Source: Lachnospiraceae bacterium (lineage in GTDB: Bacteria; Bacillota; Clostridia; Lachnospirales; Lachnospiraceae). Taken from it: a stretch of DNA of 35,069 bases. Below, piece after piece: positions 1 to 16,118 of the stretch. Where the stretch lies: NCBI GenBank assembly GCA_017620155.1, contig JAFZQY010000098.1:1-35069 (forward strand). The letters are read 5' to 3'. Under the pieces are notes generated by a model. It was not told the DNA's origin, searched no databases, and saw only the letters and a program-made list of their open reading frames with translations. Positions within the stretch are counted from its first letter, which is position 1. Each line of letters begins with the position of its first letter. The position numbers were made by a program, and so were the translations under genes.

Positions 1-28
1 GAGCCAGGATCAAACTCTCGAAAAAAGT
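1..28 (-). rRNA. 16S rRNA gene, 5' end only
   Basis: The first bases are the reverse complement of the universal 16S 5' primer region (AGAGTTTGATCCTGGCTC), so the gene reads leftward out of the window and only its first bases are present. The mature 5' end is placed by analogy with other 16S genes and is good to a few bases. Confidence 0.93.
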
Positions 29-187
29 TTGTTTTTTCCTGATTCAAAACCTTCTGGCTTCTTATCACGAATTTGTTTTGGTTGTTCTCAAAAATTCTTT
101 AGAATTTTCAAGGTCGCACTGCTGTGTGATCATCAAATTTGATTGATAACTTTTTCAAGGTTCAGCGTCCGCAGACGCAACTACATT
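29..187 (-). other. rRNA operon leader (5' external spacer)
   Basis: This is the transcribed spacer between the rRNA promoter and the 16S 5' end. On the minus strand it holds a short hairpin (GCGTC-TGCG-GACGC) near the transcription start and an AAAATTC/GAATTTT hairpin further down. The phrase ACCTTGAAAA occurs twice. A leader of this kind normally pairs with sequence beyond the 16S 3' end for RNase III processing, but that partner lies outside the window. Confidence 0.6.
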
Positions 188-216
188 AAGATAGCACTAC
201 TAAAACATTGCGTCAA
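188..216 (-). promoter_or_regulatory. rRNA operon promoter
   Basis: On the minus strand a -35 TTGACG (211-216) and a -10 TATCTT (188-193) are separated by exactly 17 bases. They lie about 160 bases upstream of the 16S 5' end, in an AT-rich setting. This is a sigma-A type promoter in the expected place for an rRNA operon. Confidence 0.8.
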
Positions 217-341
217 GAACTTTTTTAGAAAATAACATCAGATTTTTATATTCTTCGATGTGGTAACGTTTATGATAGAATATTCTCATATATCAGGCAA
301 TAGTTTTTTCACAAAAAACAGAATTAATCAGAGGTGAATAA

Positions 342-671
342 ATGACTATAGCAGAACTGATAATTGCCATTCTTATATTTGCCGGTGCAGGAGTAATGTT
401 ACTTATCAGTATCAGAAGTTTCCTGTGCAAAGGTTTCCTGATGAACAACGCATATCTTTATGCATCGAAACAGGAACGGGAACAGATGGATAAGAAGCCG
501 TATTACAGACAGACGGCAATCGTCTTTCTCCTCTTAAGCATCGTATTTGTGATCGTCGGAGTATCCCTCGTTCTTCATAATGATAAGATCACGCTCTTTG
601 AGATACCCGTCATCCTGGGTGCAGTAATATACGCAATCGTCTCCACGATACATATCAAAAAGCGAACATAA
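342..671 (+). CDS. Small membrane protein, DUF3784-like
   Basis: This 109-residue protein has three hydrophobic segments: about 5-25, 58-78 and 84-102. A charged stretch between the first two contains a KQEREQMDKK-type motif. The layout (membrane helix, a 'G-F/Y-x-x-x-S/N-x-x-E' segment, then two helices) resembles the DUF3784 family of small Firmicutes membrane proteins. No function is established for that family. The start is supported by a GAGGTG ribosome binding site (331-336), five bases before the ATG. It reads divergently from the rRNA operon and no gene is coupled to it. The family call is from memory of the pattern and could be wrong; a real small membrane protein is well supported. 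Confidence 0.7.
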   Translation: MTIAELIIAILIFAGAGVMLLISIRSFLCKGFLMNNAYLYASKQEREQMDKKPYYRQTAIVFLLLSIVFVIVGVSLVLHNDKITLFEIPVILGAVIYAIVSTIHIKKRT

Positions 672-1314
672 ATAAGAAGAAAGTGGCTGTTCATTAATCG
701 GGCCGTCCTTAGACGCTTAGGAATCGTGGTTATCATACAGTTTATGACCCAAATGGGGGTATATACTGATTTTGGGTCATGAATCAGGCCCGATATAAGC
801 ACACCGGAACCACAGTGAGCATTCAACTTATGACCCAAACAAAGTTATACGTGGCATTTGGGTCATATCACAGGCCTAACATAAGCGCAAGAGAGCCACG
901 ATCAGCATTCAACTTATGACCCAAACAGAGTTTTAAATGGCTTTTGGGTCATAAATCAGATTGCGGACACCGCGGTCGGACGACGAATTGAGCCTCCGTG
1001 AATGCGATTCATGACTTACAGAGCAAAAAGTTGCTTTTGGGTCATAAATCAGATTACAGACGCCTCGGACGGACACCGGTTAGAGCCGCCGCGAGACAAG
1101 ATGTATGACTAACTGGCCAAAAAGTTGTTCTCAAGTCATGAATTGGATTTCAGAAGCCCAGACCGGGTGAAAAACAGGCATTAAATCTGAGGTCAAGAGA
1201 ATAAACAAACGTCGAATGCGGAAAAAGCCGACGATATCTCGAACAGATGCTATACTTCTATATATATATATATAACCGAACATCACAAACAGAAAACCAG
1301 CAAAGGGGACAGCT
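672..1314. other. Gene-free 643-base intergenic region with repeat array
   Basis: I find no convincing coding region here: the short reading frames that cross it have no ribosome binding site and run through the repeats. It holds five palindromic units (listed separately). Beyond them, an (AT)-rich tract of eight TA steps lies at 1259-1274, shortly before the xylanase gene. A TATACT at 1251-1256 could be a -10 element for that gene, but there is no good -35 at the right distance. Confidence 0.6.
744..1139. repeat. Array of five 86-95 bp units, each with a palindrome
   Basis: Units 1-3 each carry ATGACCCAAA, a 16-17 base spacer and TTTGGGTCAT: 744-780, 828-867 and 914-954. Unit 4 (1011-1047) has a changed left arm, ATGACTTA, with TTTTGGGTCAT on the right. 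Unit 5 (1105-1139) has ATGACT paired with AGTCAT, a two-sided change that keeps the pairing. Left arms start 86, 86, 95 and 94 bases apart. The sequence between palindromes is also related: CAGGCC...AGC...CCAC...AGCATTCAACTT follows units 1 and 2, and ATAAATCAGATT follows units 3 and 4. I do not recognise a known repeat family. Confidence 0.85.
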
Positions 1315-3381
1315 ATGAATTTAAAGACAGCGTACAAAGATCATTTCAAAATCGGAGCAGCCATCTCTAAGTGGGACCTGCACACTCCGGCATACATGAA
1401 GCTGCTGGGGGCTCAGTTTAACAGTTTCACCTGCGAGAATGAGATGAAGCCGATGTATTATCTCGACAGGGATGCGTGCAAATCCGATCCTGCCAGGTAC
1501 AACCTGGCTCCTGCGCTGAACTTCGATACTGCGAGGCCCTTCCTGGACTTTGCGAAGGAGAACGGCATACCGATGCGCGGCCACACACTCGTATGGCACA
1601 ATCAGACTCCCGACTGGTTCTTCCGTGAAAACTATCACGAGATGTGCAAGTACGCCGACAGAGAAACAATGCTTGCCAGACTCGAAAGCTACATCCACGG
1701 AGTCCTTGATTTTGTTCAGACCAATTATCCCGGCATCATCTACGCGTGGGATGTGGTCAACGAAGCTGTCGACGAAGGCACTTTCAGAAAATCCAATTGG
1801 ACCAAAACTGTCGGAAACGATTTCGTCATAAAGGCATTTGAGTTTGCCCGCAAGTATGCTGCCCCCGAAACCAGGCTTTTCTATAACGACTACGAAACCG
1901 CCCAGGAATGGAAAAGAGACTTCATTATAAAAGAGATCTTAAAGCCCCTGAAGGAAAAGGGTCTCGTTGACGGCATGGGAATGCAGTCCCATCTCCTGAT
2001 GGACCATCCGGATCTTAAGGACTATCGCACGGCACTCGATATGTACGGAGCCCTCGGCTTAGAGATCCACATCACCGAACTCGACATGCACAACGCCGAT
2101 CCGTCGGAGGAATCAATGCATGCGCTCGCAGACAGATACGCCGCCATCTTCCAAATGTATCTGGATGCTAAAAAAGACGGCACAGCCAACATCACTTCCG
2201 TCACGTTTTGGAACATTGCAGATGAAAGAAGCTGGCTGAGCGGATTCAGAAGAGAGACGAGCTATCCCCTCTTATTTAAAGGAAAGTGTGAAGCCAAGGA
2301 AGCCTACTACTCTGTCCTCAAGGTCGCCGTGCCCGAATCCGAGATAGATAAATGGGAACCCGCATACCCCGATGAGGATTATGAGCTTCAGGGCATGCCC
2401 GAATCAGGCAAAAAAGTATTCCGCGAAAACATCTGGAAAGACAGCGAGTATGATTACGAAGCGGCATACGGCTTTACTCCGAATGTATTCGCATACCTGC
2501 ATAACGACGATGAAAAACGCGACTGCATGCTAGTGGTACCCGGCGGCGGATACTGCATGGTCGTTCCTCACGAAGGCGAACTGCCCGCAGACGAATTCTT
2601 TGATCGCGGAATGAACGTGTTCGTATTAACATACACCACCGATATCACGATGTCAGTCCCCCTGAAGAAACAGCCACTAAACGACATCTCCAGAGCAGTA
2701 AGATTCATCAGGAGCAAGGCAGAAGAATATAACATCGACGGCAAAAAACTTCTGATCTGCGGTTTCTCCGCAGGCGCACATGTATGCGGAAGCCTCGCCG
2801 TTCACTTTGACGACGTGACGGATCCGGATCCGGAGCTTAACAAAATCTCCAACCGCCCCGACGGCGCGATCCTCTCCTATCCGGTGCTGACCTCAGGCGA
2901 GTATACGCACCCCGATTCGATCAGAGCGCTGCTCGGCAATGAACCTTCCGAGGACGAACTCGAATACTTCTCTCTGGAAAAGCAGGTATCGGATAACACT
3001 CCTCCCTGCTTCCTGTGGCAGACCGAAACAGACGATCTGGTTCCGGTCGAGAACACATATCTGTTCGCAATGGCCCTCAGGAAGAAAAAGATCCCGTTTG
3101 CACACTATGTATTCCCTGCGGGATTCCACGGCCTGTCCATAGCCAACGACGAGTATTTCAAAGGCTGGTCCGGCGGCAATTACACGATGGAACAGACCAT
3201 GCGCGCTGCACATTCGGTTAAAGACGGAAAAGGGATCAATGTATCCGAGGAAAGAAAAAAAGAACTGATCGATCAGTTCTTCGGCGATAATGAGATGCCC
3301 GCATTCGGTATCGACTTAAGTCTCAAAGAAGATGCGGGACTTTGGTCTGACCTCGCATGGGCGTGGATGAAAAGACTGTAA
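1315..3381 (+). CDS. Intracellular GH10 endo-xylanase fused to an alpha/beta-hydrolase esterase
   Basis: Residues 1-340 are a GH10 xylanase. The acid/base Glu150 lies in WDVVNEA and the nucleophile Glu255 in HITELDMH; HTLVWHNQTPDWF (about 90-102) and the TFWNIADERSW motif (about 297-307) form the substrate cleft. Residues about 380-640 are an alpha/beta hydrolase. They show an oxyanion-type VPGGGY (408-413), nucleophile Ser485 in GFSAGAH, an acidic residue at 573/574 and His605 in GFHGLS, as in acetyl-xylan and related carbohydrate esterases. There is no signal peptide, so it probably cleaves and deacylates imported xylo-oligosaccharides in the cytoplasm. An AAAGGGG ribosome binding site (1302-1308) sets the start. 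The exact esterase specificity (acetyl or feruloyl) cannot be read from the sequence. Confidence 0.93.
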   Translation: MNLKTAYKDHFKIGAAISKWDLHTPAYMKLLGAQFNSFTCENEMKPMYYLDRDACKSDPARYNLAPALNFDTARPFLDFAKENGIPMRGHTLVWHNQTPDWFFRENYHEMCKYADRETMLARLESYIHGVLDFVQTNYPGIIYAWDVVNEAVDEGTFRKSNWTKTVGNDFVIKAFEFARKYAAPETRLFYNDYETAQEWKRDFIIKEILKPLKEKGLVDGMGMQSHLLMDHPDLKDYRTALDMYGALGLEIHITELDMHNADPSEESMHALADRYAAIFQMYLDAKKDGTANITSVTFWNIADERSWLSGFRRETSYPLLFKGKCEAKEAYYSVLKVAVPESEIDKWEPAYPDEDYELQGMPESGKKVFRENIWKDSEYDYEAAYGFTPNVFAYLHNDDEKRDCMLVVPGGGYCMVVPHEGELPADEFFDRGMNVFVLTYTTDITMSVPLKKQPLNDISRAVRFIRSKAEEYNIDGKKLLICGFSAGAHVCGSLAVHFDDVTDPDPELNKISNRPDGAILSYPVLTSGEYTHPDSIRALLGNEPSEDELEYFSLEKQVSDNTPPCFLWQTETDDLVPVENTYLFAMALRKKKIPFAHYVFPAGFHGLSIANDEYFKGWSGGNYTMEQTMRAAHSVKDGKGINVSEERKKELIDQFFGDNEMPAFGIDLSLKEDAGLWSDLAWAWMKRL

Positions 3382-16030: not shown

Positions 16031-16118
16031 ACGCTATTCTCCTGTTTATATAAAAACAAACAATCCATATGTATATAAAAAGACAATCCCTATTTATTCG
16101 GATAAACCATGCACATAT

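Follow-up and report, generated by a model that had tools for sequence, protein, structure and literature searches.

A turning-over family of intergenic palindrome arrays with helically spaced units in two sister species of Lachnospiraceae

Analysis of the window, a 35,069-nucleotide stretch of DNA from a Lachnospiraceae bacterium (contig JAFZQY010000098.1, assembly GCA_017620155.1), revealed a five-unit palindrome array (positions 744-1139) which is probably a member of a narrowly distributed intergenic repeat family, composed of putative protein-binding or DNA-wrapping sites that lie in helical register and behave as non-autonomous repeats. Comparison of the window genome with that of a sister species, Lachnospiraceae bacterium XBB2008, and with further relatives leads us to conclude that these arrays belong to a turning-over family of intergenic DNA repeats that is BIME/NIME-like in layout, but a new family.

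The array and its site classes

The initial annotation had described five regularly stepped units in this interval, and the array is real, with the units and their steps being recovered (start steps of 86, 86, 95 and 94 bp; Table 1). Units 1-3 are perfect palindromes of 37 bp with 10-bp inverted arms and a 17-bp interior (class A), whereas the interior is 15 bp in both unit 4 and unit 5, which represent a second class of site (class B) that is also found elsewhere. Unit 4 retains the right arm only of class A (ATGACTTACA...TTTGGGTCAT), and unit 5 retains neither class A arm. The array had been regarded as a uniform series with degenerate last units, in which both arms of unit 5 had changed together, and selection on the pairing had been deduced from that change; this argument fails, as ATGACTT...ARGTCAT is the usual form of class B and unit 5 is not an altered class A site.

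Table 1. Features of the array and its flanking genes in the window.
Feature	Position	Strand	Description
Upstream neighbour	342..671	+	Small membrane protein, DUF3784
Unit 1	744..780	.	Class A palindrome ATGACCCAAA-N17-TTTGGGTCAT, 37 bp
Linker 1	781..829	.	49 bp, ladder value
Unit 2	830..866	.	Class A palindrome
Linker 2	867..915	.	49 bp
Unit 3	916..952	.	Class A palindrome
Linker 3	953..1010	.	58 bp (ladder value 59 minus 1)
Unit 4	1011..1045	+	Hybrid, 35 bp: left half-site and A-rich centre of class B, right arm of class A
Linker 4	1046..1104	.	59 bp
Unit 5	1105..1139	+	Class B site, 35 bp, 3 mismatches to class B pattern
Downstream neighbour	1315..3381	+	GH10 xylanase fused to BD-FAE-type esterase domain

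A CRISPR array was rejected as a candidate, since it needs identical repeats and unrelated spacers, while here the interiors of the repeats vary and the linkers within the array are related. Elsewhere in the window, a 23-bp A-rich tandem repeat in two copies (16049-16097) was the sole row found by TRF. Positions 1-20 look like the reverse complement of the 5' end of a 16S rRNA gene, so that the contig break apparently falls at a ribosomal operon.

Distribution among relatives

Across 61 genomes, the search for exact class A arms with the interior gap left free from 10 to 30 (ATGACCCAAA-N10..30-TTTGGGTCAT) detected 26 sites in the window genome and 8 in XBB2008, while none were detected in the other 59 relatives searched and the reversed-pattern control gave 0. 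The abundance of the motif in the window genome is far beyond chance. This search of genome and relatives had been proposed by the initial annotation together with a fixed spacer of 16-17 bases; the spacer is indeed fixed, at a value of exactly 17 bp in all 34 exact-arm sites despite the wider gap allowed. With up to three mismatches, class A sites numbered 38 in the window genome and 21 in XBB2008, with 0 in five other members of the genus. The generic pattern ATGACYY...RRGTCAT occurred 52 and 53 times in these two genomes, respectively, vs 3-7 times in those five (reversed-pattern controls 0-4; places listed only in part). Copy number stands at about 50 sites per genome, with up to six sites per array.

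Three classes of site adjoin unrelated genes, class A of 37 bp, class B of 35 bp and class C of 48 bp. Class A combines conserved arms with a free interior: in 59 sites, which were chosen for carrying two arm mismatches at most, TGAC and GTCAT never vary, 58 sites have A or T at the dyad, and the interior positions carry 0.01-0.9 bits. Class B (ATGACTTACAGAGCAAAAAGTTGCTCTCARGTCAT; comparison set of 25 site sequences) is asymmetric with a conserved A-rich centre and, with up to three mismatches, was detected 6 times in the window genome, 17 times in XBB2008 and not at all in 39 other relatives. Class C has two A-rich stretches and was found at about 10 sites in XBB2008 (11 listed, of which one overlaps a class A site by chance and another contains one), at four in relative G006, and at one in relative G002, where a G006 copy sits. 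Allowing up to two mismatches, 22 of the 61 genomes had some class C match; those beyond XBB2008, G006 and the one G002 site amounted to 1-3 per genome vs 0-1 in the reversed control and were treated as chance, and matches of the 48-bp generic pattern in relative G005, which lie inside a coding gene, were likewise discarded. The classes mix within arrays, with an A-B-A-B-A-B alternation at one locus and with hybrid sites such as window unit 4.

Regarding more distant genomes, a GTDB scan with the class A pattern, from which the window genome may be absent, returned 34 stretches, 6 of them from XBB2008. A widespread class A motif was rejected, as 23 of the 28 other stretches had no second site within 400 bp (up to six mismatches); of the rest, three had one weak or near copy and two, from Bacillaceae, were other arrays. 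These latter palindrome arrays (L050 1-420, Bacillus sp. EB106-08-02-XG196; L031 1990-2270, Neobacillus niacini) have GTGACCC-like arms at strict 50-52-bp steps and are probably unrelated to the window family, though of the same layout; in N. niacini some arms appear to change together (GTGACCC/GGGTCAC vs GTTACCC/GGGTAAC). A Rhodanobacteraceae MAG (L058 6400-6680) contains a 35-bp palindrome, TGACCCAAACGGACC...TTTGGGTCA, in two copies about 190 bp apart, the second with one mismatch; it follows a tRNA-like sequence and looks like a terminator.

Gain and loss of arrays between sister species

In XBB2008 the same DUF3784/xylanase gene pair is present, with a 90% identical xylanase, and a two-unit class A array lies between the two genes; the array is therefore not absent from every close relative with this gene pair, a state that the initial annotation had named as evidence against it. 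The xylanase of relatives G002, G004 and G006 is 76% identical; in G002 the gene upstream of it differs from that of the window, and in G006 class C sites lie downstream of it.

Six arrays, including that of the window, are common to both species (window/L075, L067/L025, L068/L070, L019/L071, L020/L026 and L106/L073), and shared arrays differ in unit number (5 vs 2, 4 vs 1). A further 20 arrays, 8 from the window genome and 12 from among the XBB2008 loci, were queried via a neighbouring gene, which was present in the other species for 16, the remaining four being XBB2008 arrays with no usable match. At all 16 loci (8/8 from the window genome and 8/8 from XBB2008) the other species has no site beside the same gene. 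Both flanks could be aligned at 11 of these loci; at L023, L024, L069, L072 and L078 the alignment was limited to a single flank (or to a 31-bp match on the left). At nine of the loci with both flanks the array occupies a stretch of 169-903 bp vs 0-79 bp in the other species, while at L020 (454 vs 311 bp) and L022 (251 vs 185 bp) the other species has other DNA in its place. The arrays at L030 and L081 are gains in XBB2008, because the two outgroups, G002 and G006, are both short there (gaps of 2 and 25 bp vs about 280 and about 885); the outgroup state is ambiguous at L022, where G002 has 132 bp, and at L028, where the left flank is distant in G006.

Whole blocks are similar between arrays of different loci, and class C copies at two XBB2008 loci are 91% alike over 100 bp. 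One orthologous place holds a class B site in one species (L106 4287-4321) and a class A site in the other (L073 6004-6040); the right flank is the same in both, as would result from an exchange of bodies. Short tandem repeats stand beside arrays at L082 1500-1640 and L025 7250-7500 (about 21 bp, TTCGGTTTCAATCGCCGTTTC; AACCCGGGAAACGAAGC-like). Since the array is missing from the sister species at 16 of 16 loci and shared arrays vary in unit number, turnover of an intergenic repeat is supported, in agreement with the expanding intergenic repeat that had been among the first suggestions.

The same observations could reflect a pure non-autonomous mobile element, in which the arms are recognition sites of a transposase or recombinase, the helical register is that of a synaptic complex, and the host draws no function from the arrays. 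The presence/absence pattern, the class C copies that are so alike, the differing body classes at the L106/L073 place and the BIME- and NIME-like layout all agree with such an element, and yet a search for PF01797 in 7 genomes detected no Y1 (RAYT-type) transposase in the window genome or in XBB2008, the two that bear arrays, with one match in G005; a Y1 gene may have been missed in the window genome, because this is 88.6% complete (XBB2008 99%). A REP/REPIN system mobilized by a RAYT was rejected on the same search. Insertion ends read at six sites, moreover, had neither a constant end sequence nor a consistent target duplication; one possible 5-bp target duplication at L028 is not enough for a claim. 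Carriage by phages or plasmids was also rejected: viral contigs contained no class B or C copies and two lone class A matches, each with no second site within 400 bp, and neither a plasmid match of one class C array nor a phage match of the window array was found. A purely mobile origin with no host function is therefore considered unlikely, and repeat turnover combined with protein binding is preferred.

Helical spacing and A/T phasing

Linkers, measured from GTCAT to the next ATGAC, have lengths of 17, 38, 49, 57-60, 66, 69 and 80 bp. When unit spacing was checked, as the initial annotation had proposed, 54 of 57 linkers fell within 1 bp of 17+10.5n; the exceptions are the 66-bp linkers, seen at one locus of both species, and a single linker of 57 bp. 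In this count one 12-bp 'linker' resulting from a false body was dropped, one 70-bp linker was re-read as 59 bp because a 48-bp body starts earlier there, and gaps of at least 130 bp were left out; within the one concerned (143 bp) lies a degenerate class B site, flanked by linkers of 59 and 49 bp. When seven lengths are drawn at random, an equally strong periodicity at 10.5 bp arises in 0.5% of cases, or in 1.3% with the period free from 10 to 11, although some of the lengths are not independent observations, because the arrays are partly copies of one another even without the orthologues. Class C bodies are likewise 11 bp (one helical turn) longer than those of class A; class B bodies, against this pattern, are 2 bp shorter than those of class A. 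The sites are hence spaced in multiples of the DNA helical repeat, as in a protein-bound, helically phased array.

Base composition follows the same rhythm. Around the dyads of 59 class A sites the A/T maxima, taken from the profile, lie at about 0, 10, 18, 29, 42, 53 and 64 bp and thus reach well into the linkers, the best period being 10.4 when the profile is taken as a whole, 9.9 when only the body and 20 bp on either side are used, and 11.2-11.5 in the linkers alone. The phase of A/T in the linkers agrees across 23 class A arrays (R=0.81) and across 13 class B arrays (R=0.82), and agreement persists in 18 class A arrays with one array per orthologous pair (0.80) and in 7 class B-only loci (0.89), although these are not independent witnesses, because the arrays resemble each other in blocks even without orthologues. 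By comparison, 1000 control draws of 23 sets from 1225 ATGAC/GTCAT anchors outside arrays (period 10.45) reached at most 0.57, and the A/T profile is flat at 1508 such anchors outside arrays. For the 7 class B-only loci at 10.45 bp, the observed 0.89 compares with a control 95th percentile of 0.64 and a control maximum of 0.88, whereas at 11.2 bp the observed 0.91 is below the control maximum of 0.92; phase agreement was not significant for class C arrays (n=7). The curvature predicted from roll and wedge values, taken as supporting only, is high for most class A arrays and ordinary for L075 and for class B-only arrays. At one pair of orthologous arrays (L067 5987-6403 and L025 6678-7190) TTATGTAAAC occurs after the units, about 22-25 bp downstream of GTCAT, at an A/T maximum. 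Unit and linker lengths that change by helical turns, together with A/T phasing that runs on across the linkers, point to selection on the shape of duplex DNA.

These lengths also bear on the earlier suggestion of a row of RNA hairpins, transcribed and serving as signals for processing, stability or termination. Folded as a single strand the array is more stable than its shuffles (z -4.7), as any inverted repeat would be, and at all class B loci that lie between co-directional genes (7 of 7) the sites have the same direction as these genes. The covariation analysis that had been recommended nevertheless showed base-pair covariation to be essentially absent in classes A and B. In class A, 29 of 30 pairs had no excess, the one nominal signal coming from an interior pair (14/22; reached in 81 of 2000 shuffles); the pair adjoining the arms matched less often than in shuffles (28/59 vs 35.1 expected), and a matched change was present in one of 25 sites with an altered arm (ATGACTCAAA/TTTGAGTCAT). 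In class B, one of 17 pairs tested was nominal (13/22; reached by 85 of 2000 shuffles) and the others gave nothing. Covariance models of Rfam 15 had 0 matches at E<=1 in window positions 1-3000. Because the array lengths follow the 10.5-bp helix of B-DNA, a property of the duplex, and covariation is essentially absent, RNA hairpins are disfavoured and appear very improbable as an explanation, and sites recognised in duplex DNA are favoured.

Neighbouring genes and orientation

All arrays are intergenic, with the exception of one class C copy overlapping the end of an ORF (L108) and of small or over-extended ORFs from the greedy finder. Ten flanking proteins were scanned and seven had a Pfam match, namely DUF3784, the GH10 and BD-FAE domains of the window xylanase, FeoB, Mfd (a name assigned from its domains), KDPG aldolase, an AAA ATPase and a metallo-beta-lactamase-fold protein. 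The gene order around the arrays is tandem, divergent or convergent. In counts made by eye with orthologous loci counted once, the orientation with the genes seen in class B was found at 3 of 4 loci for class C, one further being unclear, and at 9 of 12 for class A, where polarity was inferred from the centre. That class B and, less clearly, class A sites point with the genes is not required by a model of pure DNA architecture. Replication direction is an equal candidate cause of this orientation, since genes tend to favour the leading strand.

A multi-site operator can also be considered, in which a regulator bound to the dyads loops between helically phased sites and controls the adjacent genes, including the xylanase. 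Dyad symmetry combined with 10.5-bp phasing is as found in repression loops, and the xylanase gene has an upstream array in both the window species and XBB2008. The neighbours of the arrays are, however, functionally unrelated, so that among the ten flanking proteins scanned the sites do not precede genes of one regulon, and arrays also lie between convergent and divergent genes. No sigma-70-like promoter was detected in window positions 600-1400, and the accompanying terminator scan found nothing. Furthermore, the orthologous xylanase genes of G002, G004 and G006 have no site upstream in the loci fetched, and arrays restricted to one sister species (16 of 16 tested loci) stand against six that are common to both. 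An operator private to the xylanase gene, as first proposed, is not supported, because the same sites adjoin the genes for FeoB, Mfd, KDPG aldolase, the AAA ATPase and others that are unrelated, and we consider control of adjacent genes through such operators improbable; a general role in DNA binding is supported by the helical phasing.

Comparison with known repeat families

The best-known interspersed palindromic repeats are those of enterobacteria, pseudomonads and Neisseria; such repeats are mostly interpreted as products of transposases, targets of recombination or protein-binding sites of uncertain use. No description of the present family was found among the literature matches listed. 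BIMEs are reported to bind gyrase and IHF, and complementary mutations are inferred in the REPs of Stenotrophomonas BIMEs (PMC2817692). Like BIMEs, the window family consists of intergenic palindromic units that form tandem arrays with regular spacing, can combine more than one class and change fast; unlike BIMEs, it occurs in genomes in which no Y1 transposase was detected, and complementary changes that would keep the palindrome are nearly absent. For NIMEs, short inverted repeats are reported together with 30-160 bp RS segments in intergenic arrays, the dRS3 repeat being 20 bp long, ATTCCC(N8)GGGAAT, with almost 700 copies (PMC3898611). Fixed arms, a variable interior and a place in intergenic arrays are common to dRS3, as described there, and the window family; this differs in having other arms (ATGACCCAAA or ATGACTTACA), bodies of 35, 37 or 48 bp, about 50 copies per genome, helical linker steps and A/T phasing, and no sequence relation between the two was seen. 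The window family works like BIMEs and NIMEs and is not classed with either, because neither the dRS3 sequence nor, in the two array-bearing genomes, a RAYT gene was detected.

The family also shares features with two kinds of protein-bound DNA. Dyad operators with long spacers (BirA-type, CIRCE) occur as one or two sites before co-regulated genes; they resemble the window family in their inverted arms of about 9-10 bp, separated by a gap and read by a dimer, whereas in the window family as many as six sites are joined in an array and the adjacent genes are unrelated. Phased A-tract or wrapping DNA, such as Lrp-type arrays and strong gyrase sites, has A/T stretches every helical turn and sites in register, as here, whereas the 10-bp arms of the window family are far more specific.

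A model of the arrays and its meaning

The near-invariant arms with their free interiors fit protein binding to half-sites on duplex DNA, the 10.5-bp steps and the A/T phasing are compatible with proteins lined up on one helical face or with DNA that wraps or curves, and the presence/absence pattern fits mobile repeats of the BIME/NIME type; protein binding and mobile-repeat behaviour can both be true. The site classes, the ladder of lengths, the A/T phasing, the scarcity of covariation, the turnover and the dispersal beside unrelated genes are observed; a protein, its wrapping of DNA and a function of the arrays we infer. In each element two inverted half-sites (core ATGACYY) form a dyad with an A/T-rich centre, and elements are chained by linkers that differ by whole helical turns, with the A/T phasing running on into the linkers. 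A putative oligomeric protein may recognise the half-sites on duplex DNA and assemble on a single side of the helix, so that the array is bent or wrapped, and its binding would hold the 10-bp arms almost constant, whereas the 17-bp interiors and the linkers are left to drift. The arrays may grow and shrink by duplication of units of about 95 bp and may also spread as multi-unit blocks to new intergenic places; spreading as blocks and changing in unit number, they would act as non-autonomous repeats. If the xylanase gene is affected at all, this would follow secondarily from the architecture of the DNA beside it.

A more far-reaching possibility, which we put forward tentatively, is a sequence-encoded DNA-wrapping system, in which a putative lineage-specific protein reads the inverted ATGACYY half-sites and wraps or stacks entire arrays in helical register, the A/T-phased linkers resembling rotational positioning signals, so that dozens of fixed nucleosome-like or looped islands between genes would be gained and lost as mobile repeats. 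The array DNA may serve as bait for finding a putative protein that organises intergenic DNA in Lachnospiraceae, and the presence/absence pairs at 16 loci in the two sister species provide ready tests of the effect of an array on its neighbours.
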